Below, in pieces: positions 44,876 through 62,942 of a DNA stretch of 64,000 nt. Position 1 is the first letter of the stretch; every line of letters begins with the position of its first letter. The DNA comes from Paeniglutamicibacter sp. Y32M11 (GTDB lineage: Bacteria; Actinomycetota; Actinomycetes; Actinomycetales; Micrococcaceae). The notes beneath the pieces were generated by a model that did no database searches, was not told the origin of the DNA, and saw nothing but the letters and a program-made list of their open reading frames with translations. The translations under genes and the position numbers were made by a program. The stretch spans positions 558,001 to 622,000 of the forward strand of contig NZ_CP079107.1 in NCBI RefSeq assembly GCF_019285735.1, written 5' to 3'.

Positions 44876-44898
44876 GGGGGTGCCTTTCGTAAATTCAC

Positions 44899-44912: not shown

Positions 44913-44955
44913 ACGATTGTTTCACAGTGTGGCATAGTTGCCGGGAAAGCAGATA

Positions 44956-44969
44956 CTAGAACGTTCTAG
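44956..44969. promoter_or_regulatory. LacI operator, copy 2
   Basis: CTAGAACGTTCTAG is a perfect 14-bp palindrome, 22 bases before the Gfo/Idh start and 57 bases (centre to centre) from copy 1, a spacing that would allow looping by a tetrameric LacI protein. Confidence 0.8.
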
Positions 44970-44991
44970 AGAAGAAGGGTGATACCCCGTA

Positions 44992-46863: not shown

Positions 46864-48066
46864 CTAGGCCGTAGGGAGCCCGGTGCTCAGGCGCCGGGCT
46901 CCCTGTGCGTCCAACGCCTCGTTGAGCTCGGCGGGGGATCCGGAGCGCGCGAGGTGCTCGGCCACCAGCTCGGCCTGTGACTGTGGGGCGAGCCCTCCGA
47001 TTGGCTGGTCCAGATCCAGATTGGTGGGGAAGGCATAGCCCTCCGCCGAGGCGGCAATGATGTTGTGCAGGGCGGCCTCCGAGGACCCCGCGGATTTGAG
47101 TTCCAGCAGCACCGGGTACAGGGCCTTGCTCATGGCCGTGCGGTCCACCGTTTCCATGGCCCGTCCGAAGGCGGAGGAGACCTGGAGCAGGTTTGCCATG
47201 CGCTTGATGTCGGCTGAAACGTTGGTGCCGGCTCCATGGAACAACGCCGGGTTGAAGAACGCCGCATCTCCCTTGGACAAAGGCAGCTGGGCATAATTGG
47301 CCTGAAAGTATTCGGTGAAGTCCTCCCGGTGGAAGGCCAGGAAGCCCGGGGCGTACTTGTGGGAGTGCGGTAGGTAGAGGGTGGGACCCGATTCCAGGGG
47401 CATGTCGCAATGCGCGACGGCCCCCTGCAGGGTCAGCGCCGGGGTGAGCAGATGGGCGTGGGCAGGGTAGGCAGCGGCCTGCTCGGCGGACATGAATCCC
47501 AGGTGGTAGTCGCGGTGCGCGCGTTGGGCGCTGCCGCCGGGATTCACCACATTGACCTGGCTGGTCACCTGGTAGTTGGGTCCTAGCCAGGCCTCCGACA
47601 CCAGGGCGAGAATATCCGAGGCATAGTAGGCGGCGAAGACCTCCGGATCGGCGAGAGCCAGCTTGTCCAGGGCACCCCAGACCCTGTCGTTGGCACCGGG
47701 CTTGGCAAAGTGGTCCCCGCCGGTGACCCCTGCGGCCTTCTGGGCCGCGATCAGGCGGTTGAAGGCGTCGGTGGCACGGTCCACGACGCCCAGATCGGGG
47801 AAGGCGCCCTTGAAGACCACGATGCCCGGGCCCTCGATGAGCGCCTTGGCCAATTCGGCCTGGACATCGGTGCGCTCGGCCGGGTCGTCCAAGTAGGAAT
47901 GCAGTCGCGGGCCGTAAATGAGCACGTTCTGCTCCACGGCATCGGCATACGGGTAGTCTTCCAACCGCGTGGTCGCGGACACGACCTGCTTAAAGTCCTC
48001 CAGATTGCAGGCTTCGGTGCGGAACCAACGGCTGGCGGCGGCGGTGGAGGTTGGGGTGATGGTCAC
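46864..48066 (-). CDS. Phytanoyl-CoA dioxygenase-family (PhyH) protein
   Basis: A 400-residue Fe(II)/2-oxoglutarate dioxygenase-like protein. AHRDYHLGFM supplies the HxD ligands, and FNPALFHGAGTNVSADIKRMANLLQVS supplies the distal His and a 2-oxoglutarate-binding Arg in two neighbouring segments. The GTG start has AAAGGAC upstream. It is divergent from a LacI-type regulator at 48266, with a palindrome between them, so that regulator probably controls it. It may hydroxylate a sugar, cyclitol or phosphonate; the substrate is unknown. It converges on the Hyi-like gene with only 16 bases between. Confidence 0.85.
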   Translation of the reverse strand: MTITPTSTAAASRWFRTEACNLEDFKQVVSATTRLEDYPYADAVEQNVLIYGPRLHSYLDDPAERTDVQAELAKALIEGPGIVVFKGAFPDLGVVDRATDAFNRLIAAQKAAGVTGGDHFAKPGANDRVWGALDKLALADPEVFAAYYASDILALVSEAWLGPNYQVTSQVNVVNPGGSAQRAHRDYHLGFMSAEQAAAYPAHAHLLTPALTLQGAVAHCDMPLESGPTLYLPHSHKYAPGFLAFHREDFTEYFQANYAQLPLSKGDAAFFNPALFHGAGTNVSADIKRMANLLQVSSAFGRAMETVDRTAMSKALYPVLLELKSAGSSEAALHNIIAASAEGYAFPTNLDLDQPIGGLAPQSQAELVAEHLARSGSPAELNEALDAQGARRLSTGLPTA

Positions 48067-48265: not shown

Positions 48266-49297
48266 GTGGCGCACAGGTTTTCCATCCGGGAAATTGCCCG
48301 GCAGGCGGGGGTCAGCGACGCCACGGTGGACCGGGTCATCCACGCCAGAGCCGGCGTCCGTGCCGGAACCATCGGGCAGGTGAAGCAGGCCATTGTCGAT
48401 CTGGAAGCACAAAGCACGCAGCTTGAGCTCTCCGGCCGTCAGTTCATGATCGACGTGGTGGTGGATGCCCCGGCACGCTTCCACATGGCGGCCCGTCGTG
48501 CACTTGAAGCCGAATTGCCGTTGCTGCGTCCGGCGGCATTCCGTGCCCGTTTCCACATGCGCGAACGTTGGGCAGCAGGTTCGCTAGTGCTCGAGCTTGA
48601 TGCCATCATTCGGCGCGGCTCGCACGGGGTCCTGCTCAAGGCTCCGGACACCCCGGAGATTGCCGCGGCTGTCCAACGCCTGTTCCAGGCCGGGATCCCC
48701 GTGGTCACCTTCGTCACCGACCTTCCTCGCAGCCCCCGTCTGGCCTATGTCGGCATGGACAACCGGGCCGCCGGTGCGACCGCGGCCTACCTGATGCACT
48801 CATGGCTGGTCGGACGCCACGGATCGGTGGCCGTGACACTGAGCAGCGGGATCTTCCAGGGCGAGGAAGAGCGGGAGATGGGGTTCCGCGCCACGATGCG
48901 TTCCCTGGGCGGGCGGAGGGACGTTCACTTCCTGCCTGCCTCTGATGGCTTGGACAGTACCGCCTTTGAGCTGATGCGTGCGGCGCTCGCCGAATACCCT
49001 GACCTGTCAGGCGTATATTCACCGGGCGGGGGAAACCCCGGCCTGGCCCGGGCCTGGCGGGAAGCCGGGCACATGCCCAAGGTGTTCATCGGCCATGACC
49101 TCAACCCGGAAAATGCCCTGCTGCTCGCCGACGGGACCCTCAGCGTGGTCCTTCACCACAAGCTGCAGGGCGATATGCATTCGGCCTGCCGGGCGCTGAT
49201 GCATTTCCACGGGGCACTACCCGGAGGGTGGACGCCGCCGCCCACGCCCATTGACGTGATCACCCCGTACAACATGCCACCAGGGCCACATCGGTAG
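48266..49297 (+). CDS. LacI-type transcriptional regulator with sugar-binding domain
   Basis: A 343-residue protein. The helix-turn-helix FSIREIARQAGVSDATVDRV begins at residue 5, followed by a LacI hinge and a periplasmic-binding-protein-like domain (about 62-320) with GSHGVLLKAPDTPEIAAAV, FVTDLPRSPRLAYVGMDNRA and GVYSPGGGNPGLARAW. GTG start with GGAAGG upstream. It probably represses the divergent PhyH gene through CCGAATATTCGG; the ligand is unknown. Confidence 0.85.
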   Translation: MAHRFSIREIARQAGVSDATVDRVIHARAGVRAGTIGQVKQAIVDLEAQSTQLELSGRQFMIDVVVDAPARFHMAARRALEAELPLLRPAAFRARFHMRERWAAGSLVLELDAIIRRGSHGVLLKAPDTPEIAAAVQRLFQAGIPVVTFVTDLPRSPRLAYVGMDNRAAGATAAYLMHSWLVGRHGSVAVTLSSGIFQGEEEREMGFRATMRSLGGRRDVHFLPASDGLDSTAFELMRAALAEYPDLSGVYSPGGGNPGLARAWREAGHMPKVFIGHDLNPENALLLADGTLSVVLHHKLQGDMHSACRALMHFHGALPGGWTPPPTPIDVITPYNMPPGPHR

Positions 49298-49613
49298 GCC
49301 TGCGATACTGCGCGGAAGAGCACTCGCCGTGCTGCTCGGAACCATTCGGTGACAAGCACGCGATTGTGCGTCGATAGGTCCCCGAACCGCCGCGTGGTTT
49401 CCGCAGTAGCCCCGTGGAGTGCCGACAGCGCGCGACCCTGGCCAAAACATCTCGGCGCTCAGCGGTGAGCCTCCGTCGTGTCATTGTCCACTTGGCTCGT
49501 CCCGGCACCATGGAAGGCAAAAAACGGGGGTGGTTTTCTCCCAGCGGATTGCTGGGAGAAAACCACCCCCTATCGAGGTCAAGGACGTCGGGATAATTCT
49601 CCGCCGCCGGTTG
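49298..49613. other. Intergenic region with a convergent terminator
   Basis: About 316 bases between convergent genes. Only the terminator at 49526-49570 is recognised; I see no gene or operator in 49298-49525. Confidence 0.6.
49526..49570. terminator. Very strong bidirectional terminator
   Basis: GGGGGTGGTTTTCTCCCAGC and its exact complement form a 20-bp stem around GGATT, with AAAAAC on the left and CTATC on the right. It separates the LacI-type gene from the converging iolG-like gene. Confidence 0.85.
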
Positions 49614-50630
49614 TTACGAAAGCTTGGTGACCTTCACCGTCTTGCCCGTTTTCGCGGACTCGAGTGCCGCATCGGCCAGTACCAGGGCCGCAACCCCGTC
49701 GTCGAAACTAGGCGAGCAGGGGCCGCCATTGCGGATGGCTTGCGCAAAGGCATCCAACTCACGCTGGTAGGCCTGTGTGTAGCGTTCCAGGAAGAAGGGC
49801 ATGTAAGCCTCGCCCTCGGCAGTACCGGCCGCTCCGTACTTGCGGACCGTGGTCGGTGTGATGTTCTTGGCTTCCAACATTCCCTCGGAGCCGAAAGCTT
49901 CCAGCCGCTGATCGTACCCGTAGGCGCAATGGCGGGAATTGGTGATCGTGATGAGCTCGCCACGGCTGCCACGCAACGTGACAACGACGGAATCATAGTC
50001 GCCCAGCTCCTCAATGTCGCTGCTGAACTGGTTGGAGCCCACTGCTGTGACCTCCACAATGTTCTCCACGAAGAAACGGGCCATGTCCAGGTCGTGGATC
50101 GTCATGTCACGGAAAATTCCGCCAGAGGTTTCGATGTAATCGCGGGGAGCCGGAGCCGGGTCGCGGCTGATGATGGTGACCTGTTCCAACGATCCGATTT
50201 CGCCGGCGGCAACGCGCGCGTTGATGGATGCGAAGCTTGGGTCAAACCTCCGGTTGAAGCCGAGCATGATGGGCACGTTCGTGTCCTTCAACTTATCGCG
50301 GCACTCCATGACAGTGGCCAGATCCAGATCGATGGGCTTTTCGCACAGGACGGCGAGTCCATGGGCTGCGGCGCGGGTGATGAGATCGACGTGGGTGTTG
50401 GTCGGTGATCCAATGATCACTCCGTCCAAGTCGGGCTCGGCAAACACTTCTTCCGGATCCTGTACCGCACGGGCCCCGGTCAGTTCCGCAAGTTTGCGGG
50501 CGCCATCAATAAACGGGTCGGCAATGAGAACGAGCTCGATGTCCGGGTGAGCGGCAAGATTGCGGGCGTGTACTTGACCAATCCGGCCAGAGCCGAAAAG
50601 CGCCATGCGCAACGGGCGAGGTGAAGTCAT
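49614..50630 (-). CDS. iolG: Inositol 2-dehydrogenase (second IolG-type Gfo/Idh enzyme)
   Basis: A 338-residue NAD-dependent dehydrogenase oxidising myo-inositol or a close cyclitol to the inosose. It has LRMALFGSGRIGQVHARNLA, VLCEKPIDLD with the catalytic Lys, LGFNRRFDPSFASINARV and SGGIFRDMTIHDLDMARFF, the most canonical IolG set in the window. The ATG at 50630 follows AAAGGACT; a frame start at 50669 has no such site. It is the last gene of a leftward operon with a TIM barrel and another Gfo/Idh gene. Its distance from the main iol operon suggests a role in the hydroxyquinol-linked module. Confidence 0.88.
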   Translation of the reverse strand: MTSPRPLRMALFGSGRIGQVHARNLAAHPDIELVLIADPFIDGARKLAELTGARAVQDPEEVFAEPDLDGVIIGSPTNTHVDLITRAAAHGLAVLCEKPIDLDLATVMECRDKLKDTNVPIMLGFNRRFDPSFASINARVAAGEIGSLEQVTIISRDPAPAPRDYIETSGGIFRDMTIHDLDMARFFVENIVEVTAVGSNQFSSDIEELGDYDSVVVTLRGSRGELITITNSRHCAYGYDQRLEAFGSEGMLEAKNITPTTVRKYGAAGTAEGEAYMPFFLERYTQAYQRELDAFAQAIRNGGPCSPSFDDGVAALVLADAALESAKTGKTVKVTKLS

Positions 50631-50741
50631 GGGGTGTAGTCCTTTCAAGAATGGGGAATCCGTAGTCACGGCTGTCTAGGGCGGCAAGTGTGCTGCACCT
50701 TGACGGTTTTTGTGCCTGGGGCACGGGGTGGTTGCTGGGGC

Positions 50742-51617
50742 CTAGCCGGGGAAAGAAGCGATGGCGGTGTCGAAGGCCCGCCGGAGTCCTTCATGCAGGG
50801 GTGTTGCCCGGTGTTCGCGGGAAATGATCTCCACTCCCCACGGTCCCTGGTACCCGGCCTCAATGGCCAGCCTGACGAATGTTGAGGTGGCGAATTCGCC
50901 GTGGCCGCAGTAAGCACGGTTGTTGATGGTGTCCTCGAACAAGGTCCCGTCGGTCTTGTGGAACCCGTCGTCGATTTCCACGGCGAACACGCGGTCCATC
51001 GGGGTGATCTGCCAGAGTTCCTCGTGTGAAAGCCCCGATTTGGCGGTGTGCCAGATGTCGATCATCAGCCCGGCCGAGGGGCTGTCCGACGCGGTCACCA
51101 CCTGGATCGCCTCGGCGGTGGTGCGCAGGTTGGAGAAAGGGGTGGCCTCCAGGGCTAATCGGATGCCGGCATCGGCAGCTTCGTCAGCGAGATCGGAGAA
51201 GGCACTGGTCATTAATGCGTTGGGCAGTGGCTCATCGGCGTTGCCTGCTCCCACCTTGATGTGCCTGGCGCCCAGCAGGGTGGCTGCCTCGAAAAGCTCG
51301 GCCTGGACCTTATCTGCGGTCTTGCGCTCTGCCCCGGTGGACCACCAGCCGTTGATGAACTCGACTTCGATGATGTTGATTCCGGCGCCGCGGATCTGCC
51401 GCCCCAGCTCTTCGTAGCCGATCGTGTCACGGGCTGCCAGCAGATCGTCATGGACCAGGCCGATGCCAGCCCATCCGGTGTCGGCGACTGCGGCGATGCG
51501 TTCCGCAATCGGTAGTGGGCTGCGCTCCGTGGCACCCAGCGGCGCGGCATTCCCGGCGCTGGTCCAGCACGTGGCAATCAGTTCCGGAGTTGGTTTGCCG
51601 GAGTCAGTGGTCTGCAT
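50742..51617 (-). CDS. Sugar phosphate isomerase/epimerase-like TIM-barrel protein
   Basis: A 291-residue xylose-isomerase-like barrel. VADTGWAGIGLVHDDLLAA, EVEFINGWW, KVGAGNADEPLPN, LALEATPFSNLRTT (metal Glu) and LMIDIWHTAKSGLSHEE (metal Asp, His) are visible. Only 2 bases separate it from the upstream Gfo/Idh stop. Together they form an oxidise-then-isomerise or dehydrate pair; loss of water from an oxidised cyclitol by a barrel of this type has precedent in IolE. The reaction itself is inferred. Confidence 0.82.
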   Translation of the reverse strand: MQTTDSGKPTPELIATCWTSAGNAAPLGATERSPLPIAERIAAVADTGWAGIGLVHDDLLAARDTIGYEELGRQIRGAGINIIEVEFINGWWSTGAERKTADKVQAELFEAATLLGARHIKVGAGNADEPLPNALMTSAFSDLADEAADAGIRLALEATPFSNLRTTAEAIQVVTASDSPSAGLMIDIWHTAKSGLSHEELWQITPMDRVFAVEIDDGFHKTDGTLFEDTINNRAYCGHGEFATSTFVRLAIEAGYQGPWGVEIISREHRATPLHEGLRRAFDTAIASFPG

Positions 51618-51619
51618 GT

Positions 51620-52720
51620 TCAGGGCACCTCAATGAGTGTTGGTTCGACGATGTTGGCCATGCCTCCGGCGTTGTTGCTCGAACGGTAGCAGGCATCAAC
51701 AATGCGGGCCACGGTCAGGGCATCGGACACCGGGGCCACGTTGGGTGCACCGGTGCGAATGCTGTCGACCCAGCCACGCATTTCGGTGCGGAAGTTACTG
51801 ATGTTCTCCAGCTCGGGAAGTTCGGAAAACTTGTTGCCTTCGGTCCGCGCGAAGGGTGGGGTGAAGTAGCTTTCGGTCCATTCGGTCCAACCCGCCGGCA
51901 GCACTGCGGCGGCCTCGTCCAAGTAAACGCGCAAGCGTTGGGGAAGAATGCCGATCTCGATCATTCCCCGTGTGCCGTAGACGAAGATGCGGGAGCTTTC
52001 GAACCATTCGAGTTTGTCGTGGCCATCGAAGCTGAAGGTGGCGGACATATCGGGGTAGTTCAGCAACACCGATGCGGAATCTTCCCGGCTTTTTTCGTCT
52101 GAGAGCCGCGTGGACTTGTGCACGCGGGCGTTGACGGACTCCGGTGTGCCAAACATGTGGACCAGCGAATCAAGCATGTGGCAGCCGAGGATCCACAGGA
52201 CTCCGCCCATGTCGGCCGGCTGGTTCAGATGGTCGGTGACATGTTCGCCAACCATCGCGGCGCCTCGGGCCGAAACGGTGACGACCTCGCCGATGGCTCC
52301 ATCGTCGATGAGATTCTTGGCCCGCGTGATCGACTCTGCGAGTCGTACGTTGTAGCCCACCTGGACAACCTGCGTCGAGGGGACCCCATGCTCGGCCTCG
52401 GCAAGCTGCATAAGGTCCAGAACCGTTCCGCCTCCGGGCTTTTCCACGACCACTGACTTGCCGGCAGCCAAGGCGCGCAGTGCGTGGGGGACCATGTCCT
52501 TGCTCTTGGAGTGGATCATGACGGCGTTGATCCGCTCGTCGTTGAGCACCCCGTCGATGTCGCGAAGCTCGACATCGTATTTCTCGGCGAAGTATCCCAA
52601 GCGCGGGTCTTCATCGGCGGCAGCAACTACTTCCACGTTCTCAATTTCACGCAGCGCCCTGACGCGGGCGGATGCATGCGGGTGGGTGATTCCAAGCAGT
52701 CCCACAACGATAGGTTTCAT
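51620..52720 (-). CDS. Gfo/Idh/MocA-family oxidoreductase
   Basis: A 366-residue NAD(P)-dependent dehydrogenase of a divergent branch. KPIVVGLLGITHPHASARVRAL replaces the usual GxGxxG with GITHPH. VVEKPGGGT holds the catalytic Lys, VGYNVRLAESITRAKNLI and WILGCHMLDSLVHMFG follow. The ATG at 52720 has AGGAGAT upstream; a longer frame to 52834 runs across the promoter. It is the first gene of the leftward operon, preceded by the TGGACA-N3-TGTCCA operator. The substrate is unknown. Confidence 0.85.
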   Translation of the reverse strand: MKPIVVGLLGITHPHASARVRALREIENVEVVAAADEDPRLGYFAEKYDVELRDIDGVLNDERINAVMIHSKSKDMVPHALRALAAGKSVVVEKPGGGTVLDLMQLAEAEHGVPSTQVVQVGYNVRLAESITRAKNLIDDGAIGEVVTVSARGAAMVGEHVTDHLNQPADMGGVLWILGCHMLDSLVHMFGTPESVNARVHKSTRLSDEKSREDSASVLLNYPDMSATFSFDGHDKLEWFESSRIFVYGTRGMIEIGILPQRLRVYLDEAAAVLPAGWTEWTESYFTPPFARTEGNKFSELPELENISNFRTEMRGWVDSIRTGAPNVAPVSDALTVARIVDACYRSSNNAGGMANIVEPTLIEVP

Positions 52721-52837
52721 CGAGTTATCTCCTGTAGCTGTTTCCCGAGCGCTTTCGTTTGGTACGAGGGCACGTGGATCCGGATCGGTCATGGCCATGC
52801 GGATTCCAGGTTGTCTATTTCGACCTAGTCGCATCTA

Positions 52838-52854
52838 TTGGACAGTGTGTCCAA
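52838..52854. promoter_or_regulatory. IclR-type operator candidate, leftward arm
   Basis: TTGGACA-GTG-TGTCCAA is a palindrome with perfect 7-base arms, 118 bases before the Gfo/Idh start. Its core TGGACA-N3-TGTCCA recurs with one change at 54639-54653, on the other side of the iclR gene. Confidence 0.7.
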
Positions 52855-52922
52855 AGTATTGCATGTCACATCATGAGGGGTCAAGTCACAGAGTGGACGG
52901 GTCGATCAGCTGATGAAAGTGG

Positions 52923-54491
52923 TTAGGGTTGCGCTGGGGTCGGAGCGCCGAGGTACTCCGAGAGGTGGCGGGCTCCCTCACGGGCCAGTTCAATCACGGT
53001 GCGACCATCTTCCGGTTCCGCAAGAATGCCTTCGCGCAGGCCGCTGACGCAAAGGGAGGCGACAACGTGCCCCTTGTGGTCAAAAATCGGGGCGCCGATT
53101 GCCGCGATGCCCGGTGTTAGCTCGTCATCACTCAAGGAGTATCCCGCGGAGCGGATGGCCTCGAGTTCCGAGTAGAACTTCGTCCGAGCGCGCACGTCGA
53201 ATTGGATGTCGGCATTCTGCGAAACGATGCTCGCGTAGTCTTCCCAAGTCTGCCGGTCCTCAAAGGCCAAAAGTGCGCGTGGGGCTGCGCCGGTATGCAG
53301 TGGCAGCGAACCGCCCAGTGCCAGCAAGCGGCTGTTCACGCGCTTCCCGTCGACCCGTTCGATGCAGACGGCCCTGGTGTTTCGCCGGATGCACATGAAG
53401 GCCGATTCGCCCGTTGCTTCATGAATTGAACGAAGGACGGGAACCGCTGCGCGGCGCAAGTCCAGGTCATTGAGTAGTTTGCCGGACAGCGAGATGAGTT
53501 TGCTACCGATCCGGAAGGCGCCGCGAGGTCCCAGTTGCTCAACCCAGCCTGCCTCGGCGAGGGTGGCGAGCATGCGATAGACCGAACTGACCGGCTCGTC
53601 AAGAAGCTCGGTCAGTCGAGCGGAGGTTGAGATGCGCTCGTTGGCAAGGGCCTCCATGAGCGCGTTGGCCTTGGCGACGATCGATGGGCTGTTGTCCGTA
53701 CTCGTGCTGAGCACACGCGCGGTTGGCTTTGGAATAAAATGCAGCATGGCTTCGGTCAGGGTCCGCGCGGCCTCGCCGATCACGTCCCTAGCTTCGTCCT
53801 GCTGGAGGAGGACTTGGTCCACGAGGCCAGCGGCCGTGAGTGAACCGAATATCGTGCCATCGGGATTTAGCACCGGGAAGCTGATGGCTGCGATCCCGTC
53901 TACGACTTCATTGACCTCCAATCGCCAGCCCTGGCGCCTGGTTTCCTCGATGTGATTCCGCAAAGTGTCAGCGTCAATCGGGGTCTTGGAGGACAGCCTG
54001 TCGTACGGCGCTGCGCCCAGCACGCTTTCCCGGACTTCCTCGGGTTGGAAGGCCAGAAGTACGTGGGATGCTGCGCCTGCGTGCATGGGCAGAATGCGCC
54101 CGGAAGAGAGTTCGAATAGGTCGACATCGGTGGCGTCTACCTGTTCCAGACACACCGCGGTCTCGTTGCGGGGGATCCAGAAGGATGCCGTGAGCCCCAG
54201 CTGCCGCTGGACGGCATCCAGCTGCTCGGCCAGAACTTTTCGGTCAATGATTGCATCGGCCGCGGCCTCCCCGAGGTGCAGGATCTGTGTCCCGAGTTCA
54301 ATGCGGCCGTCTTCGGAGCGCCGCACCAGGCCAGGCTGTTCTAATGCGGAAACGATCCGATACACCGAGGGGCGTGGCTCCTCCACGGCCTTGGCCAGTT
54401 CCGCCGACGTCGATGGCCCGAGGTTAGATATTTCATCGATCACCTGGGTTGCCTTCGCGACCAGCTGGATTACATTCGCTGCGGGTTTCAT
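52923..54491 (-). CDS. Double-length IclR-family regulator (two complete IclR units in tandem)
   Basis: A 522-residue protein containing two full IclR regulators in one chain. Unit 1 has a winged helix (about 5-65, STSAELAKAVEEPRPSVYRI) and an effector domain (about 75-250, with LPMHAGAASHVLLAF and ISFPVLNPDGTIFGSL). Unit 2 repeats this (winged helix about 275-335, STSARLTELLDEPVSSVYRM; effector about 345-515, LPLHTGAAPRALLAF and IGAPIFDHKGHVVASL). The ATG at 54491 has AAGGAG 7 bases upstream. No frameshift or stop lies between the units. It sits between the two operons that carry the shared palindrome, so it likely senses a pathway intermediate and controls both. Confidence 0.88.
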   Translation of the reverse strand: MKPAANVIQLVAKATQVIDEISNLGPSTSAELAKAVEEPRPSVYRIVSALEQPGLVRRSEDGRIELGTQILHLGEAAADAIIDRKVLAEQLDAVQRQLGLTASFWIPRNETAVCLEQVDATDVDLFELSSGRILPMHAGAASHVLLAFQPEEVRESVLGAAPYDRLSSKTPIDADTLRNHIEETRRQGWRLEVNEVVDGIAAISFPVLNPDGTIFGSLTAAGLVDQVLLQQDEARDVIGEAARTLTEAMLHFIPKPTARVLSTSTDNSPSIVAKANALMEALANERISTSARLTELLDEPVSSVYRMLATLAEAGWVEQLGPRGAFRIGSKLISLSGKLLNDLDLRRAAVPVLRSIHEATGESAFMCIRRNTRAVCIERVDGKRVNSRLLALGGSLPLHTGAAPRALLAFEDRQTWEDYASIVSQNADIQFDVRARTKFYSELEAIRSAGYSLSDDELTPGIAAIGAPIFDHKGHVVASLCVSGLREGILAEPEDGRTVIELAREGARHLSEYLGAPTPAQP

Positions 54492-54638
54492 TTTATGCTC
54501 CTTGACTTGTCCATTCACGGCTTACCCATTCCTGCGGCGGCGATTAGTCCAGTTTTGCCTGTTCCCGACGAAAGGGAAAATCTTGGCTCTGGGTCCAGTT
54601 AACCAGTCTCGCAGTGATTTAGATCATGTGATACTGTC

Positions 54639-54653
54639 TGAACACGTTGTCCA
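54639..54653. promoter_or_regulatory. IclR-type operator candidate, rightward arm
   Basis: TGAACA-CGT-TGTCCA matches the leftward-arm site TGGACA-N3-TGTCCA except for one base in an arm. It lies in the divergent region between iclR (start 54491) and the ABC binding protein (start 54746). Confidence 0.65.
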
Positions 54654-54745
54654 TTCTATGACACTAGGCGTCGGTAGCTCGCACCAGAGGAAACCGAAGA
54701 CAGCGCACACACGACAAGCAGCTCGTTTCAACTTCGGGAGAAGAC

Positions 54746-55897
54746 ATGCAAAGACGAATCTTTCTGGCTGGTGCCGCAATGGCCGCAACCTTGCTGGTTT
54801 CAAGTTGTGGCGGTCCGGGTGCCACGGGCGGATCGACGAATGGGCAGAGCCAGGAACCCACTGACATCAGAATTGGGGTGTCGCTGACCAGCCAGGATGA
54901 GGAGCGCTGGATCACCGATGGGAAGGCCATCCAGAAGGGACTGGAGGACCTCGGTTATCAGGTGGACCTGCAGTACGCGAACAACGACATTCCCACGCAG
55001 CAGCAGCAGGTGGACCAGATGATTACGCGCGGGGCCGATCTGCTGATCCTTGCCCCTCTTGACGGCACGGCCCTGGCACCGCAGCTACAGGCGGCGGTTA
55101 ATGCCGAGATCCCCATCATTTCCTACGACCGGTTGATCCGGAACAGCCCGGATGTTGACCTGTACGTCACCTTTGACAACTACAAGGTAGGGGCGGAACA
55201 AGGCAAGGCGTTGTTGACCGGCCTGGACATCCTGAACGAGGACGGGTCGGAAGGCAAGGCCAAGGGCCCGTTTAACGTCGAGCTCTTCGGCGGATCGCTC
55301 GACGACAACAACGCAACCTTCGTCTACGACGGGGGCATGTCCGTGTTGCAGAAATACATTGACGACGGCACGATCGTGGTCGCGTCGGGCCAGACGAAGC
55401 TCTCGCAGATTGCCACCAAGGATTGGTCGCAGCAGGAAGCCCAGTCCCGCATGGACAATTTGATCACGTCCAGCTATTCCGACGGAACCTCCCTTGATGC
55501 GGTTCTGACCCCCAACGACAGCGTCGCCCGCGGCGCAATCACAGCTCTGGGCAACTCCGGCTACGGACCGAAGCACGGAACTGGCGCACATCCCATGCCG
55601 ATCACCACCGGCCAGGACGCGGAGATCGCGTCGATCAAGCTGATCAACGACGATGTCCAGTACGCAACGGTTTTCAAGAACACCAAGCTGCTCGCGGCCC
55701 AGGCCGTTAATGCGACCGAGGATCTGCTCAACGGGCAGGAACCGGAGGTCAACGACTCGACGTCGTATGACAACGGTGCCGAAGTGGTCCCCTCCTTCCT
55801 CATGCCGATCGAAGTGGTCTTCAAGGACAACATCAAGAAGCTCCTGGTGGACTCGGACTACTACACCGCCGAGCAGATCAAGACGGGCAGACTCTGA
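54746..55897 (+). CDS. Sugar ABC transporter substrate-binding lipoprotein (ChvE/XylF type)
   Basis: A 383-residue extracellular binding protein. The signal MQRRIFLAGAAMAATLLVSS ends in a lipobox with Cys21 (LVSSC), so it is lipid-anchored. The two-lobed periplasmic binding fold begins IRIGVSLTSQDEERWITDG and contains LILAPLDGTALAPQLQAAV, IISYDRLIRNSPDVDLYVTFDN and AVLTPNDSVARGAITAL, typical of the multiple-monosaccharide ChvE group. GGGAGAAG precedes the ATG. It leads the importer operon under the divergent IclR region. The ligand could be a sugar or a cyclitol. Confidence 0.9.
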   Translation: MQRRIFLAGAAMAATLLVSSCGGPGATGGSTNGQSQEPTDIRIGVSLTSQDEERWITDGKAIQKGLEDLGYQVDLQYANNDIPTQQQQVDQMITRGADLLILAPLDGTALAPQLQAAVNAEIPIISYDRLIRNSPDVDLYVTFDNYKVGAEQGKALLTGLDILNEDGSEGKAKGPFNVELFGGSLDDNNATFVYDGGMSVLQKYIDDGTIVVASGQTKLSQIATKDWSQQEAQSRMDNLITSSYSDGTSLDAVLTPNDSVARGAITALGNSGYGPKHGTGAHPMPITTGQDAEIASIKLINDDVQYATVFKNTKLLAAQAVNATEDLLNGQEPEVNDSTSYDNGAEVVPSFLMPIEVVFKDNIKKLLVDSDYYTAEQIKTGRL

Positions 55898-55957
55898 CAG
55901 CTTCCCGCTTTCAGCCTCAGGACCACACAATTACTAGAGAATCGATAGGACTGCACG

Positions 55958-57496
55958 ATGCCTGATTACATTCTGGAAATGCGTTCCATCACCAAGAGTT
56001 TCCCCGGTGTGAAGGCGCTGGCGGATGTCACCTTCTCCGCGGAGCGTGGGGAAGTGCACGCCATCTGCGGTGAAAACGGCGCGGGCAAGTCCACGCTGAT
56101 GAAGGTGCTCTCGGGTGTCTACCCCCATGGCAGCTACGGGGGTGAAATCCTCTTTGAGGGCAAGACCTGCGAATTCTCCGGAATTCGAGATTCCGAGCGC
56201 GCCGGCATCGTGATCATCCACCAGGAACTGGCGCTGGTTCCGCACTTGTCCATCGCCGAGAACATCTTCCTGGGCAATGAACGCCGGGGCCGCGGAGGGC
56301 TGATTGACTGGCACAAAACCCAGGCCGAAGCCGCGGAGTTGCTGAATACGGTGGGCCTGGGCGAGGAACCCACGACGCCGGTCGGACTACTTGGTGTGGG
56401 AAAGCAGCAGCTGGTGGAGATTGCCAAAGCTCTGGCCAAGGACGTAAAACTCCTCATTCTTGATGAGCCGACCGCTGCCCTGAACGACAACGACTCCGCC
56501 CACCTGCTCGACCTGGTGCGCTCACTGCAGGAACGGGGAATCACCTCCATTATCATTTCGCACAAGCTCAATGAGATCGAGGCGACAGCCAACCGCACGA
56601 CCGTGATCCGTGACGGGCAGACCGTTGAAACTCTGGACATGATGGCACCCGATGTAAACGTTGACCGCATCGTGCGCAGCATGGTGGGCCGGGATCTCGA
56701 GTCCTTTTACCCGGAACGGACCCCAACGCCCGGGGAAGTGGTCTTGGAAGTTCGGGACTGGACTGTGCGCCACTCCCAACAGGATCGGTTGGTGGTTGAC
56801 GGTGCCTCGTTCGAGGTTCGCTCGGGTGAAGTCGTGGGCATCGCTGGTCTCATGGGAGCCGGCCGCACCGAACTGGCCATGAGCCTCTTCGGGCGGTCCT
56901 ACGGCCGATTCGTCTCGGGGCAGACGCTGATACACGGCAAACCGGTTGCTCCCCGCACGGTGGCCGAGGCGATCGGGCTCGGACTGGCATATGTGACCGA
57001 GGACCGGAAACAACTGGGCTTGAACCTGCTCGATACGATCACGCGCAACGTCTCCGGGGCGGCGCTGCCGAAGCTGGCCAAATGGGGGTTCGTGGATGCC
57101 AACCTGGAAGCGAAGCTGGCCAGGCACTCGATGGATTCTATGCGGATCAAGGCCCCGAGCGTCCAATCGGTGGTGGGCAAGCTCTCCGGCGGCAACCAAC
57201 AGAAGGTCGTCCTGTCCAAGTGGTTGTTGACTGGCCCCGATGTGCTGATCATCGATGAACCCACCCGAGGGATCGATGTCGGTGCAAAGTTCGAGATCTA
57301 TACCCTGATCAACGAGTTCGTGGAATCGGGCAAGGCCGTCGTGGTGATTTCCTCGGACCTGTTGGAGCTGCTGGGCACCTGTGACCGGATCTACGCGCTC
57401 TCCGGTGGGCGGATCACCGGTGAACTTCCGGTGGCGGAAGCGAATGAAGAAAAACTCATGACTCTCATGACCAAAGAAAAGGAAGCAATAGGATGA
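55958..57496 (+). CDS. gguA: Multiple-monosaccharide ABC transporter ATP-binding protein (GguA/MmsA type)
   Basis: A 512-residue protein with two ATPase domains in tandem. Domain 1 has [19 protein letters not shown] (about 32-50) and [13 protein letters not shown]. Domain 2 has the degenerate Walker [26 protein letters not shown] and [16 protein letters not shown], the arrangement known for monosaccharide importers. It energises uptake together with the binding protein and permease on either side. Its stop overlaps the permease start as ATGA (57493-57496). Confidence 0.93.
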
Positions 57497-58725
57497 CTGT
57501 CACAGCCTCCCGCGGACCCAAGGGCGCCCTCGCCCAGCCTCCCGAAAAAAATGGCTTGGGCGAACTGCGCCTTGCCCTGACGCGAAACCTGCGCACCAGT
57601 GGAATATACGTCGCCCTCGTGGCACTGGTTGCCTTGTTCGCCCTCATCACCGGCGGGGCTTCGTTGTCGGCCGGAAACGTTACCAACATCGTCTTGCAGT
57701 ACTCCTACATCCTGGTTCTGGCCATCGGTATGGTCATCGTGATCATCGCCGGGCACATCGACCTGTCGGTCGGGTCCGTGGTGGCCCTGACGGGCGCGAT
57801 ATCGGCGATCACGGTCATCAAATACGACCTGCCCTGGTGGGTCGGCGTTCTGGCGGCGCTGGCCACCGGACTGTTGATCGGTGCCTGGCATGGTTTCTGG
57901 GTTGCCTACGTCGGCATTCCGGCCTTCATTGTGACCCTTGCCGGCATGCTTCTATTCAGGGGACTGACCCTCTTCGTCCTGGACAATGTCTCGCTTTCGC
58001 CGTTCCCTGACGAATACGGGGTCATCGCCTCGGGATTCATCAACGGATGGCTCGGCGGATACGGCTATGACGTATTCACCTTGGTTGTCTTCGCGCTCGG
58101 TGTCGTCGGGTTTGCCGTGAGCCAGTACCGCTCGCGCAAGGCCCGCATGGGGTACCACCAGCCGGTCCCGCCACTTTCGCTGTTTGCCCTCAAAATCCTG
58201 GCCGTGGGCGTGCTCGTGATGGCATTCGCCTGGAAGCTGGCCTCGGCCCGCGGGTTGCCGGTCGTGTTGATCATGCTGGCCGTATTGATCATGGCCTACA
58301 CCGTGATGATGCAGCACACCGTGTTCGGCCGCCAGGTCTACGCCATTGGCGGCAACTTGGCCGCCGCTTCGCTCTCGGGCGTCAAGGTCCGTGCAGTGAA
58401 CTTTTGGATCTTCGTCAACATGGGCTTGCTCTCGGCCGTGGCTGGAATCGTCTTTTCCTCACGCACCAATGGCGCCCAGCCGGGTGCCGGGAACATGTTT
58501 GAACTCGATGCCATCGCGGCGGCCTTCATTGGTGGCGCGGCGGTCACCGGAGGCGTTGGCAAGGTCGTAGGGGCCATGGCCGGTGGCCTGATCATGGCGG
58601 TCATGAGCAACGGCATGCAGCTGATGGGCATCGACCAGTCCCTGCAGTCCGTGGTCAAGGGCCTAGTGCTCCTGCTCGCCGTAGCCTTCGACATCTGGAA
58701 CAAGCGCCGCGCGGGTGCCCACTAG
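57493..58725 (+). CDS. gguB: Multiple-monosaccharide ABC transporter permease (GguB type)
   Basis: A 410-residue membrane protein with about ten helices. [56 protein letters not shown] and [20 protein letters not shown] are the conserved segments of the BPD_transp_2 family. It is longer than RbsC, as is usual for GguB. It completes a three-gene importer. The next gene, maleylacetate reductase, follows after 87 bases with no clear terminator, so the importer and the ring-cleavage genes may be cotranscribed. Confidence 0.92.
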
Positions 58726-58812
58726 GCCCGCGAACAACAATTCCGGAATACCACCGACGGTGGAACGAAAAACCATCTTGCACACGAAACATCCCACGGA
58801 GGAGTCCATTCA

Positions 58813-59892
58813 ATGACCACGCAATTCACCTACGACGCACTTCCCATGCGAGTCCGGTTCGGAGCGGGTGCCCTGGCAGAGCTGCCCGCCGAGCTTGACC
58901 ACCTTGGACTGAATCGGGTCCTGGTCCTGTGCTCACCGGAACAGAAAGACACCGGCGACCAAATTGCCGGAATCCTTGGTGCACGTGCGGTCGGAGTCCT
59001 GGCCGAAGCGGTGATGCACGTGCCCGCCGAAGCTGCGCAACGCGCCAGCGACGAGGCGGCACGGGTAGGGGCCGACGGGTGCGTCACCGTTGGCGGCGGG
59101 TCGGCCATCGGCTTGGGCAAGGCTATCGCCCTGAACCACAATCTGCCGATTGTTGCCGTACCCACGACGTATGCGGGTTCGGAAATGACCCCTGTCTGGG
59201 GCCTGACGACCAACGGACGGAAGGAGACCGGCAGGGATCCCCGGGTGCTTCCCCGCAGCGTCGTCTACGACCCGGAACTGAGTGCGACATTACCGGCAGC
59301 GATGTCGGTGACCAGCGGCATCAATGCCATTGCGCACGCGGTCGAAGCCCTGTATGCGCCGGATGCGACGCCCATCATTTCCCTGATGGCCGAGGACGGG
59401 GTCCGCGCCCTAGTCGCGGCGCTGCCGTCCATTGTGGAGAACCCCACCGACTTGGAAGCCCGGAGCAACGCGCTGTACGGGGCATGGCTCTGCGGCGCTT
59501 GCCTCGGGGCGACGACGATGTCGCTTCACCACAAGCTCTGCCACGCACTGGGCGGAACCCTGAACCTTCCCCATGCCCAGACTCACACGGTTGTCCTTCC
59601 CTACGCGTTGGCATTCAACCAGCCAGCCGCCCCGGCGGCAAAGTCGGCACTGTCCCGAGCCCTGGGGGACGTGGACGATCCGGCATTAAAACTGTGGGAG
59701 CTGGCCGAAGAACTCGGAGCCCCGCGCTCGCTGGCCGAGCTGGGAATGCTGGAGGAAGACATCGAGCGGATTGCCGAACAAGTCACCAGCTACTCCTATG
59801 GCAACCCCCGACCCATCGATCTGGCCGCGGTTCGAGGGATCCTTCGTGATGCCTGGGCAGGAGACAAACCACGTGAAAATCCTTCAGCCTAA
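58813..59892 (+). CDS. Maleylacetate reductase
   Basis: A 359-residue member of the iron-containing alcohol dehydrogenase fold that reduces maleylacetate to 3-oxoadipate with NADH. RVRFGAGALAELPAEL, VTVGGGSAIGLGKAIAL, AVPTTYAGSEMTPVWG and the GRDPRVLPRSVVYDPEL segment are hallmarks of maleylacetate reductases; HKLCHALGGTLNLPHAQTHT is the matching metal-site region. GGAGGA precedes the ATG. It directly serves the product of the hydroxyquinol dioxygenase encoded two genes later, which makes the pathway assignment firm. Confidence 0.92.
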   Translation: MTTQFTYDALPMRVRFGAGALAELPAELDHLGLNRVLVLCSPEQKDTGDQIAGILGARAVGVLAEAVMHVPAEAAQRASDEAARVGADGCVTVGGGSAIGLGKAIALNHNLPIVAVPTTYAGSEMTPVWGLTTNGRKETGRDPRVLPRSVVYDPELSATLPAAMSVTSGINAIAHAVEALYAPDATPIISLMAEDGVRALVAALPSIVENPTDLEARSNALYGAWLCGACLGATTMSLHHKLCHALGGTLNLPHAQTHTVVLPYALAFNQPAAPAAKSALSRALGDVDDPALKLWELAEELGAPRSLAELGMLEEDIERIAEQVTSYSYGNPRPIDLAAVRGILRDAWAGDKPRENPSA

Positions 59893-59988
59893 CCACCACA
59901 TGCCCGCGTGGCGTTCAGATCTGGACGCTGGAGCTCTCGCATCCCCGGTGCGCACCTGGCGCGCACCCGTACGTTCTGGAGTTTGACC

Positions 59989-60927
59989 ATGCCTTCACAG
60001 CTAGCAGTTTCACAACAAATCAAGGTAGCGCCGATGGTGCTCGGGACCAATGTCTTCGGCTGGACCGCCGATGTTGAGGTTTCCCACAGGATCCTCGATG
60101 GGTACGTGGCGGCGGGTGGAAACTTCATTGACACCGCGGACTCGTACTCCTACTGGGCCGAGGGCAACTCCGGAGGCGAAGCCGAAACAATCATTGGGTC
60201 GTGGCTTGCGCGGCGCGATGACCGGGACAAGCTTCTGGTGGCCTCGAAAGTGAGCCACCATCCGCAGCTCTCGGGGATGGCTCCGGCGACAATCAACGCA
60301 GCCGTGGACGGTTCGTTGACCAGACTGGGGCTCGATTACCTCGACATCTACTACGCGCATTTTGATGATCCTTCCACGCCGCTGGTGGAGAGCATTGAGG
60401 CAATGTCGGGGCTGGTGGACCAGGGTAAGATCCGCTCGATCGGCATCTCCAACTATTCACCGGAGCGGATCACCCAGTGGCTTGAGATCAGCGAACGCGA
60501 AGGCTTCCATCTACCGGTAGCCCTCGAACCCCAATATAACCTCATGGAACGCGACGTCGAGGCGTCGCTCCTGCCACTGGCGCAAAAACACTCCCTTGAC
60601 GTCTATCCCTACTATTCGCTCGCCCACGGATTCCTGACCGGGAAGTACCGGAGCGCCCACGATGTCGACAGCGTTCGGGCGGCCGATGCTAAACGGTACC
60701 TGACGGCTCGCGGCGAAAAGGTGCTGGGTGCCCTCGCGCAGGTTTCGACCGGCCGCGCGTGCCCCTTCGCGCCGATTGCCTTGGCGTGGCTGAGGGCGAA
60801 AACCGGGGTCACGGCTCCGATTGTCAGTGCGCGCACCGTGGCACAACTCGAGCCACTAGTGGCCAACATGCATCTGGCCCTAACCGAAGGCGAAGTGCAG
60901 CTTTTGGACGAAGCTTCACAACCGTAA
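59989..60927 (+). CDS. Aldo/keto reductase
   Basis: A 312-residue NADPH-dependent (beta/alpha)8 oxidoreductase. MVLGTNVFGWTADVE, FIDTADSYSYW (catalytic Asp and Tyr), LVASKVSHHP (Lys), DLGLD-like LGLDYLDIYYAHFDDP (His), GKIRSIGISNYSP and the C-terminal GVTAPIVSARTVAQLEPLVANM cofactor loop are present. The ATG at 59989 follows TGGAG; the earlier frame start at 59908 lacks a site. It is embedded between maleylacetate reductase and the dioxygenase, so it probably acts on the same compound, perhaps reducing a keto-cyclitol or dehydrating intermediate. That is inference. Confidence 0.87.
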   Translation: MPSQLAVSQQIKVAPMVLGTNVFGWTADVEVSHRILDGYVAAGGNFIDTADSYSYWAEGNSGGEAETIIGSWLARRDDRDKLLVASKVSHHPQLSGMAPATINAAVDGSLTRLGLDYLDIYYAHFDDPSTPLVESIEAMSGLVDQGKIRSIGISNYSPERITQWLEISEREGFHLPVALEPQYNLMERDVEASLLPLAQKHSLDVYPYYSLAHGFLTGKYRSAHDVDSVRAADAKRYLTARGEKVLGALAQVSTGRACPFAPIALAWLRAKTGVTAPIVSARTVAQLEPLVANMHLALTEGEVQLLDEASQP

Positions 60928-60969
60928 ACATCTTTGGTGCCTGGCCACCAACCACGAGGAGGAAACAGC

Positions 60970-61902
60970 ATGAGCAGTTTAACTGAAGAAACACGCACAG
61001 CGGACGATGCCAACCGGGCGGCAATTTCCCCGGCGCAGTCCGACGTTGAAGCACGACTGATCGAAAACGTTCTTCGGTCCTTCGAGCAATGCACCGAGCC
61101 GCGGACCAAGCGATTGATGCAGTCGCTGGTGCGCCACCTGCACGCCTTCATCCGCGAGGTCCGGCTCACGGAAGCCGAGTGGGAAAGGTCCATTGAATTT
61201 CTCACGGCCGTCGGCCACATCACCGACGACCGGCGCCAGGAGTTCATCTTGCTCTCGGATGTTCTGGGCGCTTCGATGCAGACGATCAACGTCAACAACG
61301 AAGCCGTGGGTAACGCCACCGAAGCCACCGTCTTCGGGCCGTTCTTTGTTGACGATGCCCCCCTCATCGCCAATGGCGGCGACATTGCCGGTGCCGGTGT
61401 CGGACAGCCCTGCTGGGTGGAAGGCAGCGTCAAGGATGTGGACGGAAACGCCATTCCCAACGCGCGCATTGAGGTGTGGGAAGCCGATGAAGACGGATTC
61501 TACGATGTCCAGTACACCGACGATCGGGTATCGGGCCGGGCACACCTCTTTAGCAATGACGCAGGAAGCTACAACTTCTGGGGCCTGACGCCAACCCCGT
61601 ACCCAATTCCACACGATGGCCCGGTCGGCAAGATGTTGGAAGCCACCGGTCGGTCGCCCATGAGGGCATCACACCTTCACTTCATGGTGACTGCCCCAGG
61701 TTTCCGCACCTTGGTGACGCATATTTTCGTGCGAGGCGACGAACTGATCAAGTCCGACACTGTTTTTGGCGTCAAGGACAGCCTTGTCAAGGACTTCGAG
61801 CACCAACTCCCGGGAACGCCGGCGCCCGACGGACGCGAACTCGTGGAGAGTGACTGGTCAAGGGTGCGATTCGACATCGTTTTGGCCCCCGAAGTGGCTT
61901 GA
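60970..61902 (+). CDS. Hydroxyquinol 1,2-dioxygenase (intradiol ring cleavage)
   Basis: A 310-residue Fe(III) intradiol dioxygenase. The N-terminal helical dimer domain (about 20-110) is followed by the catalytic beta sandwich. The four iron ligands are Tyr178 (GFYDVQY), Tyr211 ([10 protein letters not shown]), His235 and His237 (ASHLHF). Their spacing (33, 24 and 2) equals that of the characterised Nocardioides enzyme (Tyr164, Tyr197, His221, His223, from memory). The neighbouring maleylacetate reductase favours hydroxyquinol over catechol. The ATG at 60970 follows GAGGAGGAA. It ends in front of a convergent terminator and iolB. Confidence 0.92.
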
Positions 61903-61996
61903 GGAACGACGTCCCGCTTGTGAATCGGCCACTTCTCATGGCCTGAATTGGCCGAGGAAGCTCCCGACGGGTTGTGTATGGGGCGGGCCCTACTAC

Positions 61997-62035
61997 AAGG
62001 AGCCGGTTTCCCCGAGATGGGGGAACCGGCTCCTT
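61997..62035. terminator. Bidirectional terminator between the dioxygenase and iolB
   Basis: AAGGAGCCGGTTTCCCC and GGGGGAACCGGCTCCTT form a long near-perfect stem with a short GAGAT loop between converging genes. Confidence 0.8.
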
Positions 62036-62048
62036 GGAGGACATGTGC

Positions 62049-62942
62049 CTAAGGGGTGAAGGGCAACCGTGGGTCGATCGTAGCCTTGTCCCACGTCTCA
62101 CGAACCCAGCCGTGGTGCGGGTCATCGCTGATCAGCCACTCTCGTACGCGACCCGGTCCGGCCATGACGTTGAGGTAATACAAGTCGTAGCCCGGTGCAG
62201 CCATGGCGGGTCCATGCCAACCGTAGGGAACCAAGACGACGTCACCGGTGCGCACCTCGGCGGTCACATCGATGGGACGCTGGTCCGACGCATAAACCCG
62301 GGCATAACCGATCGGATCGGAGGACTCCGGGGCCCGCGAATCTTGCGCGACCCGGGTCTCGAAGTAGTAGATCTCCTCGAGGTTGGTTTCCCCGTCTTTT
62401 TCTTCGTCATGCTTGTGCGGCGGGTAAGAGGACCAATTGCCCGACGGGGTGATGACCTCACAGACAATAAAGCGGTCAGCTTCCAGCGCCGCGGGAGTGC
62501 CAAAGTTGTGGACTTGCCGAGAGCAGTTGCCCGCTCCCCGAAGCTCAACCGGCGTCTGAGCCGCTGTAATCAGTCGAGTCGGGTAGGACGCTTTGGCCGG
62601 TGCCAGGGCCACGGCAAAGCGACCTCCTGCGGGTGAAGCAACGCTCACCGCCGTGTTAATACCGGTATAGAGCACGTCCGATGGTCCCTCGAAGACCGAC
62701 CGCCGCCCTGCCAACGCATAATGCTCACCGTTGACCATCGCGGTGAAAGCTCCTTGAAGCGGGATGATGATGCGTTCTTCCGCCGCTGCCTGCAGAGATA
62801 ATTCTTCACCGGCTTTAAGCTCGGCAATCTTGATGCCGGTGTGTGCCCAGCCGGGGACTACCAGCGTTGAATCCGCAGCACCGATGGAGGTAGTCCATGG
62901 TCCGTCAATGGCTGTTCCTGCCGGATAAACCCAATCTGTCAA
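62049..62942 (-). CDS. iolB: 5-deoxy-glucuronate isomerase
   Basis: A 297-residue cupin-fold isomerase turning 5-deoxy-glucuronate into 5-dehydro-2-deoxygluconate, the substrate of IolC. SSYPPHKHDEEKDGETNLEE holds the metal-binding His and Glu, followed by IYYFE. VPYGWHGPAMAAPGYDLYYLNVMAGPG is a second signature. It begins with TTG (62940-62942) after AAAGGA. It is separated from iolC by about 30 kb and lies directly downstream of the GntR gene, with which it is probably cotranscribed (gap 37 bases). Confidence 0.94.
   Translation of the reverse strand: MTDWVYPAGTAIDGPWTTSIGAADSTLVVPGWAHTGIKIAELKAGEELSLQAAAEERIIIPLQGAFTAMVNGEHYALAGRRSVFEGPSDVLYTGINTAVSVASPAGGRFAVALAPAKASYPTRLITAAQTPVELRGAGNCSRQVHNFGTPAALEADRFIVCEVITPSGNWSSYPPHKHDEEKDGETNLEEIYYFETRVAQDSRAPESSDPIGYARVYASDQRPIDVTAEVRTGDVVLVPYGWHGPAMAAPGYDLYYLNVMAGPGRVREWLISDDPHHGWVRETWDKATIDPRLPFTP

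Follow-up and report, generated by a model that had tools for sequence, protein, structure and literature searches.

A candidate route from cyclitols to hydroxyquinol encoded within an inositol locus of Paeniglutamicibacter sp. Y32M11

A stretch of 64 kb from the 4.17 Mb genome of Paeniglutamicibacter sp. Y32M11 (G000:C1:558001-622000, hereafter the window) carries two divergent arms of genes around a shared tandem IclR regulator gene, as judged from its open reading frames and family searches. One arm encodes an OxiC-type Gfo/Idh protein, a TIM barrel protein and an IolG-type dehydrogenase; the other encodes a ChvE-GguA-GguB importer, maleylacetate reductase (MAR), an aldo/keto reductase and hydroxyquinol 1,2-dioxygenase (HQD). 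On the evidence of gene content and related loci, we consider it somewhat more probable than an even chance that the cluster takes up a cyclitol, aromatises it to hydroxyquinol (1,2,4-trihydroxybenzene) and cleaves the ring. That the substrate is a deoxyinositol we would sooner doubt than assert. The features of the cluster, in window coordinates, are as follows.

49526..49570, no strand: terminator-like inverted repeat beyond the end of iolG (from sequence)
49614..50669, minus strand: IolG-type inositol 2-dehydrogenase (TIGR04380, 397 bits against a cut-off of 355)
50742..51617, minus strand: AP_endonuc_2 TIM barrel, proposed dehydratase/aromatase (Pfam; best NCBIfam match QuiC, 60 bits)
51620..52834, minus strand: OxiC-type Gfo/Idh/MocA protein without the classical dehydrogenase site (residues GITHPH and Ile)
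52839..52853, no strand: palindrome TGGACAGTGTGTCCA, proposed operator of the dehydrogenase/TIM arm (motif search, conservation)
52923..54518, minus strand: tandem IclR regulator with two helix-turn-helix and two effector domains (domain matches)
54639..54653, no strand: palindrome TGAACACGTTGTCCA, proposed operator of the transporter/MAR/HQD arm (motif search, conservation)
54746..55897, plus strand: ChvE-type sugar-binding protein (453 bits, slightly below the cut-off of 460)
55958..57496, plus strand: GguA-type sugar ABC transporter ATPase (803 bits, slightly below the cut-off of 810)
57493..58725, plus strand: GguB-type sugar ABC transporter permease (512 bits, above the cut-off of 450)
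58813..59892, plus strand: MAR, iron-containing alcohol dehydrogenase family (match to the solved MARs 3w5s and 3hl0)
59908..60927, plus strand: aldo/keto reductase (Pfam; start is the first in frame)
60934..61902, plus strand: HQD (match to 1tmx; start is the first in frame)
61997..62035, no strand: terminator-like inverted repeat between HQD and iolB (from sequence)

The reading frames named in the original prediction were all present, and their families agreed with Pfam/NCBIfam-type searches. Taking the first start in frame, TIM and Gfo are 2 bases apart, GguA and GguB overlap by 4, and 15 and 6 bases separate the aldo/keto reductase from MAR and HQD respectively; this spacing supports two predicted operons. 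The tandem IclR gene starts 227 bases from chvE, and the largest gap within the cluster is at most 316 bases. The cluster lies inside a large inositol locus, flanked by iolC/D/A/E/G-type genes (32-46 kb) and by iolB (62049-62942). This location, together with an IolG product above the inositol 2-dehydrogenase cut-off, supports the general cyclitol route.

The claim that the arm encodes two Gfo/Idh polyol dehydrogenases agreed with the sequence of IolG but not with that of the 51620-52834 product. The latter scored 71 on TIGR04380, so it is not an inositol 2-dehydrogenase by the cut-off of 355, and it shows the changes published for OxiC: GITHPH replaces GxGxxG, and Ile stands where the catalytic Asp is expected (GGVLWILGCHMLD, as compared with GGIFRDMTIHDLD in IolG). 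The G[IV]THPH motif and Ile or Val at the catalytic position were kept in 13 homologues, the window's included, and in three more. A GxGxxG pattern flagged in two long open frames (L077 and L085) is probably upstream of the true start. The OxiC-type protein is possibly a second dehydratase or a tautomerase. An order-wide search found it in 6 of 397 genomes. In locus L235 (G1283, 9492-13593) the OxiC-type gene stands directly beside MAR and HQD.

The barrel had been described as IolE-type. By sequence it is not, since the product of 50742 gave no match to the IolE model TIGR04379 at 1e-3. Its best NCBIfam match was QuiC, the aromatising 3-dehydroshikimate dehydratase, at 60 bits, well short of the cut-off of 1200; that the best curated match is an aromatising dehydratase supports the general route. 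E157, D187, H190, E214, R234 and E263 were invariant in 16 aligned homologues. In the structure 5hmq, deposited as 4-hydroxyphenylpyruvate dioxygenase and presumably a QuiC protein, the residues facing E157, D187, E263, H190 and R234 are the same and E214 faces Gln; these positions would include the metal site of QuiC-like barrels. The best solved match was Lmo2234 (2g0w), whose deposited name gives no function.

MAR matched the solved MARs 3w5s (2.4e-102) and 3hl0 at about 345 bits, and HQD matched the solved hydroxyquinol 1,2-dioxygenase 1tmx over residues 31-319 (3e-141, 473 bits). A classical hydroxyquinol-type HQD in the window's lineage is as expected if the compound cleaved is hydroxyquinol.

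We propose that ChvE-GguAB would import the cyclitol and that the IolG-type dehydrogenase would oxidise one of its carbons. Two waters beta to the ketone would then be eliminated by the TIM barrel, perhaps assisted by the OxiC-type Gfo/Idh protein, to give hydroxyquinol; HQD would cleave the ring, and MAR would yield 3-oxoadipate for the CoA-transferase/thiolase route. The HQD and MAR reactions are established for their families; the two dehydrations, the protein performing each and the substrate we infer. On paper, two beta-eliminations give the 1,2,4 pattern only with a CH2 next to the ketone, as in 2-deoxyinosose, whereas a plain inosose would give the 1,2,3,5-tetrol; hydroxyquinol would thus be reached from a quercitol oxidised at a carbon adjoining the CH2 (C6H12O5 to C6H10O5 to C6H6O3). 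Vibo-quercitol dehydrogenases make 2-deoxy-scyllo-inosose, and deoxyinosose gives hydroxyquinol in acid. With hydrogen iodide, deoxyinosose is converted to catechol, according to the available passages of PMC6170601.

The original prediction also placed a double IclR regulator between the arms and the same palindrome on both, and this was confirmed. TGRACA-N3-TGTYCA occurs at exactly two sites in the 64 kb (52839 and 54639), one before each arm. With one mismatch allowed, four sites were found as compared with 0.5 expected, and four were reached in none of 100 shuffles. The site of the dehydrogenase/TIM arm had a counterpart in all nine related loci examined, four of them from the same genus as the window, and the second site in seven of the eight examined relatives having chvE, Rhodococcus included. 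One conserved palindrome per arm supports the general cyclitol route. In locus L042 a second TIM gene (15862-16731; 68% identical to the window TIM) is accompanied by a further palindrome of its own (16937), and L029 likewise has two TIM copies.

The prediction that aromatic hydroxylase, decarboxylase and aromatic transporter genes are lacking was borne out: none came up among the scanned proteins of 48266-62942. Related loci were compared using markers for FAD monooxygenase, two-component flavin monooxygenase, flavin reductase and gamma-resorcylate decarboxylase, scored within 5 kb of MAR/HQD; a marker named FAD3_L150 was dropped, as its extracted frame looked wrong. Neither the window nor any other TIM-linked locus showed a hydroxylase or decarboxylase marker (0/20 and not 0/21, the stretch of L029 having no MAR/HQD), as compared with 19 of 33 TIM-free loci, or 22 of 36 when the loci that supplied marker sequences (L222, L224 and L225) are counted. 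This contrast (Fisher 1e-5, kinship ignored) supports the general cyclitol route. The other 14 of the 33 TIM-free loci show no marker either, and hydroxylases of other types would escape the test.

The same gene set was then to be expected in other actinobacteria, and four further genomes of the window's genus, as well as Arthrobacter and Rhodococcus, showed the same order. More widely, TIM, MAR and an intradiol dioxygenase recur together in Micrococcaceae, Rhodococcus and alphaproteobacteria, with varying dehydrogenases and transporters. The set stands with short-chain dehydrogenases/reductases (SDRs), a zinc dehydrogenase and a sugar ABC importer in G085, with SDRs in G713, G716 and G729, with SDRs and a butanediol-type dehydrogenase on an Agrobacterium plasmid, with SDRs and a sugar ABC importer on pRL11 of R. 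leguminosarum, and with SDRs and importer homologues on pRHL1 of R. jostii RHA1. That independent assemblies with other dehydrogenases keep TIM, MAR and dioxygenase supports the general route. On pAU20b of Aureimonas sp. AU20, genes for a sugar-binding protein, ATPase, permease, TIM, IolG, OxiC-type Gfo, Dabb protein, MAR and an intradiol dioxygenase follow each other on one strand, and the run ends with lower-pathway genes for 3-oxoacid CoA-transferase A and B and 3-oxoadipyl-CoA thiolase. Identity to the window proteins is 32% for TIM, 38% for Gfo, 47% for IolG and 55% for MAR, and no hydroxylase is annotated across the 17 kb. Judged by its genes, the run appears to cover every stage between import of a polyol and entry into central metabolism, and as a single run it lends support to the general route.

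Plasmid records were sampled by TIM and by MAR relatives. Six of 137 records with a TIM relative, picked from 30 listed, were examined: MAR and dioxygenase were present in L044, L046 and L049, a dioxygenase alone in L045, and neither in L047 and L048. Among 347 records with a MAR relative, eight of 60 listed were examined, and two (L220 and L221) had TIM. In genome surveys, 12 members of a family set of 197 encoded TIM (E up to 1e-20), as did 6 of 396 genomes of the phylum; a search with alignment A1 (E up to 1e-40) detected it in 19 of 298 genomes from the Rhodococcus order and in 29 of 396 from the window's order. A genome-contig search with a single protein gave five close loci, and no relative was found in viral contigs. 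Of the 197 family genomes, HQD was present in 10 of the 12 with TIM as compared with 16 of the 185 without (kinship again ignored in the Fisher test), which also supports the general route.

Trees were built after removal of L028 and L039-L041 as duplicates of other loci. Of the 67 barrels in one tree, the window's clade comprised 12 rows, all of them labelled HQD-linked (100/100; labels partly set by hand). The other linked barrels were scattered: L032 with L077, L080, L045, three rhizobial rows, L092 and L094. The HQD-linked label was set by hand where MAR was present and HQD was cut off or beyond the 9 kb limit, and also for the L029 rows and L042's second TIM copy. Of the 67 rows, 39 had neither an HQD nor an iolD label, and four weaker-second-barrel rows and one short row were left out. 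Among MARs, the 15 from actinobacterial TIM-linked loci grouped in a single clade (96/94) that excluded 29 MARs of TIM-free loci of the window's family. HQDs of TIM-linked clusters fell in at least two places of a quick tree that gave long-branch warnings, an arrangement that points to exchange of the dioxygenase.

The cluster resembles the iol2/ihtR region of Corynebacterium glutamicum, for which we rely on the available passages of PMC9603128 and PMC7764795. There, oxiC-cg3390-oxiD-oxiE and the IclR repressor gene cg3388 (IhtR) face a divergent operon, iolT2-rhcM2-rhcD2. OxiC lacks a complete GxGxxG, has Ile for the catalytic Asp and is of unknown function according to its authors, who call cg3390 a putative sugar phosphate isomerase (PMC9603128); inositol dehydrogenase activity is established for OxiD and OxiE (PMC9603128, PMC7764795). 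Both regions thus have an IclR gene, an OxiC-type Gfo with the same two oddities, an adjoining TIM barrel and inositol dehydrogenase, and a divergent operon of cyclitol or sugar transporter, MAR and dioxygenase genes. The window differs in that a ChvE-GguAB ABC importer takes the place of the major facilitator superfamily transporter IolT2, that an aldo/keto reductase is added, and that its arm has a single IolG as compared with OxiD and OxiE. Among the compounds tried, 1,2,4-trihydroxybenzene released IhtR at the lowest concentration (PMC7764795), which supports the general route; by analogy, the tandem IclR protein would repress both arms until hydroxyquinol appears. RNA of cg3388 and rhcM2 on inositol or resorcinol is reported as 'comparable to indole addition', an ambiguous wording (PMC9603128, PMC7764795). 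The passages on this region propose no link of the inositol genes to hydroxyquinol formation (PMC9603128, PMC7764795).

Parts of the proposed route have parallels in other systems. Quinate and shikimate catabolism proceeds through QuiC, 3-dehydroshikimate dehydratase, to protocatechuate. As proposed for the window, a cyclic polyol is oxidised, a metal-dependent TIM barrel dehydrates it to an aromatic compound, and intradiol cleavage follows; in the window, however, the product would be hydroxyquinol, the cyclitol substrate would have no carboxylate, cleavage would be by HQD and MAR, and the match to QuiC is 60 bits against a cut-off of 1200. The resorcinol/gamma-resorcylate pathway shares the HQD and MAR lower part, but instead of a linked hydroxylase or decarboxylase the window has dehydrogenases, TIM and a sugar importer. 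With IolG-IolE-IolD inositol catabolism the window shares an IolG-type first step and the cyclitol setting, but a dioxygenase would open the ring after aromatisation in place of hydrolysis by IolD. In the open-licence literature, covered as listings or passages, no paper was found proposing a route from cyclitol to hydroxyquinol; subscription papers are mostly outside it, so this is weak evidence of novelty.

Several observations weigh against the general route. Among the first 16 TIM neighbourhoods, seven had MAR and/or HQD beside TIM (L023-L027, L030 and L032) and seven did not, MAR/HQD of L028 and L029 lying outside the stretch examined; of 20 further neighbourhoods four had MAR/HQD (L077, L080, L092 and L094), and of another 20 none. 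Several TIM relatives belong to inositol clusters that include IolD (L082, L127-L130 and L135). The barrel family is thus wider than a hydroxyquinol pathway, and TIM alone was dropped as a marker of such pathways. The OxiC-type Gfo occurs without MAR/HQD in L085 and L236, and in G704 (L234, 7496-10522) it adjoins MAR and HQD at a locus with a sugar importer and no TIM found; given this adjacency, the link of OxiC to the making of hydroxyquinol may be no looser than that of the barrel. When plasmid loci were added to the MAR tree, alphaproteobacterial TIM-linked MARs were intermixed with gamma-resorcylate MARs. A first tree had parted 17 TIM-linked MARs from 29 others, all 29 of one family, and the clean split as proof of a separate pathway was given up. 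Kinship to the C. glutamicum region was judged by gene order and the OxiC residues. There, 5 mM inositol had hardly any effect on IhtR binding and did not release the repressor (PMC7764795, available passages), so that plain inositol is probably not the signal.

On the same side stands evidence for an account in which one regulator controls two functions, oxidation of inositol isomers into IolE/IolD catabolism and salvage of hydroxyquinol made elsewhere or taken from soil. Ten FAD_binding_3 monooxygenases are encoded elsewhere in the genome and none in the window. One of them, the hydroxylase at G000:C1:1952110 (L217, 8921-10756), stands alone here, and its relatives, 65-80% identical, adjoin HQD/MAR in genomes of the family; a search of the genome gave only two PF04444 dioxygenases, so the window HQD could also serve this hydroxylase. 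In C. glutamicum, resorcinol leads to 1,2,4-trihydroxybenzene (PMC7764795, in the passages available). We nevertheless regard such a division of functions as unlikely, for it leaves unexplained the lasting linkage of dehydrogenase, TIM, importer, MAR and dioxygenase across changing families, alphaproteobacteria included, as well as the single gene run of Aureimonas and the marker contrast between TIM-linked and TIM-free loci.

Two other accounts propose a different chemistry. The ring might be a tetrahydroxybenzene formed from plain inositol, or inositol might be dehydrated and then reduced by the aldo/keto reductase to hydroxyquinol. IolG is of the inositol type, double beta-elimination from inosose would give the 1,2,3,5-tetrol, and inositol minus three waters is C6H6O3; in acid, inosose gives 1,2,3,4-tetrahydroxybenzene (PMC11467972, available passages). 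Yet HQD is close to the true hydroxyquinol dioxygenase 1tmx, and the best response of IhtR is to 1,2,4-trihydroxybenzene, although the listed compounds include no tetrol (PMC7764795). The aldo/keto reductase is absent from the Rhodococcus aetherivorans locus, and it was dropped as a core member; a tetrol or a reductive variant appears improbable. The main alternative offered with the original prediction was that 3-keto-glycoside chemistry frees an aromatic compound from a glycoside; here Gfo/Idh would oxidise the sugar of an aromatic glycoside and TIM would liberate hydroxyquinol by beta-elimination. Gfo/Idh and TIM-barrel pairs do serve 3-keto-glycoside pathways, the importer is of the sugar type, and a gene resembling levoglucosan dehydrogenase follows within 3 kb of the window's end (L002, 1043-2224). 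The partners expected in C-deglycosylase or 3-keto-glycoside lyase systems are a DUF6379 small subunit or a DUF1080 protein. Neither domain was found at 1e-3 among the cluster proteins scanned, and no gap exceeds 316 bases to hide such a gene. IolG scores above the inositol 2-dehydrogenase cut-off in a setting of inositol genes, and the SDR-type assemblies fit Gfo-based glycoside oxidation poorly. Glycoside release has thus lost ground and seems to us decidedly improbable.

Aromatisation of a cyclitol to hydroxyquinol, as originally predicted, was therefore supported in part. The TIM/MAR/dioxygenase sets without a linked hydroxylase, the Aureimonas run, the inositol setting and the response of the C. 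glutamicum repressor speak for it; the IolE-type barrel and the second dehydrogenase fell away.

Outside the cluster, the following neighbours were noted.

48266..49297, plus strand: LacI-type regulator with sugar-binding domain (domain match); a neighbour whose membership of the cluster is uncertain
Inositol genes, by start: iolC 32112; iolD 34046; iolA-type 35890; iolE-like 37609; iolG types 38683 and 44992; iolB 62049

The LacI-type gene is at the same place in loci L023-L026 and absent from L043. Between it and the extended inositol locus (32112-46847), which has several IolG-type dehydrogenases and TIM barrels (37609, 39719, 40670 and 46077), a PhyH-family oxygenase gene (46864-48066) adjoins the cluster just outside the range of the original prediction; as a guess, its product might act on O-methyl cyclitols. 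Relatives of the PhyH and LacI-type genes adjoin TIM or IolG relatives at loci lacking HQD (L137-L141), and they also neighbour TIM in L131 and L077. The 11 kb past the window (L002) hold more IolG-type, IolE-like and rhizopine-type transporter genes. Elsewhere, small YciI or Dabb proteins are annotated beside MAR/dioxygenase in L044, L046, L220, L223, L225 and L227, in TIM-linked and resorcylate-type clusters alike. L227 (Rhizobium tumorigenes, 3474-15827) combines MAR, dioxygenase, Gfo/Idh, two zinc-type dehydrogenases and sugar ABC genes with no TIM and no hydroxylase marker, and is perhaps another polyol-fed version. TIM-, dioxygenase- and MAR-like fragments upstream of the intact cluster in L219 (G037, 6438-8548) are perhaps remains of a second cluster.

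The broader proposal is of a widespread, unrecognised route by which quercitols or other cyclitols would be converted to hydroxyquinol with no oxygenase acting before ring cleavage, a QuiC-like TIM protein serving as aromatase and, in one branch, an OxiC-type Gfo/Idh protein as dehydratase or tautomerase. We hold this to be a serious possibility that falls a little short of an even chance. If true, it would explain why IhtR of C. glutamicum senses 1,2,4-trihydroxybenzene beside inositol genes, would give OxiC and cg3390 testable functions, and would provide a degradation route for plant quercitols. A cyclitol aromatase would also be a useful biocatalyst, giving benzenetriol from renewable polyols. 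Bacteria with ring-cleavage genes are usually assumed to feed on aromatic compounds; were cyclitols aromatised beforehand, a number of the MAR/HQD sets of soil and root bacteria, among them Arthrobacter relatives, Rhodococcus, Rhizobium and Agrobacterium, would be sugar-alcohol pathways.

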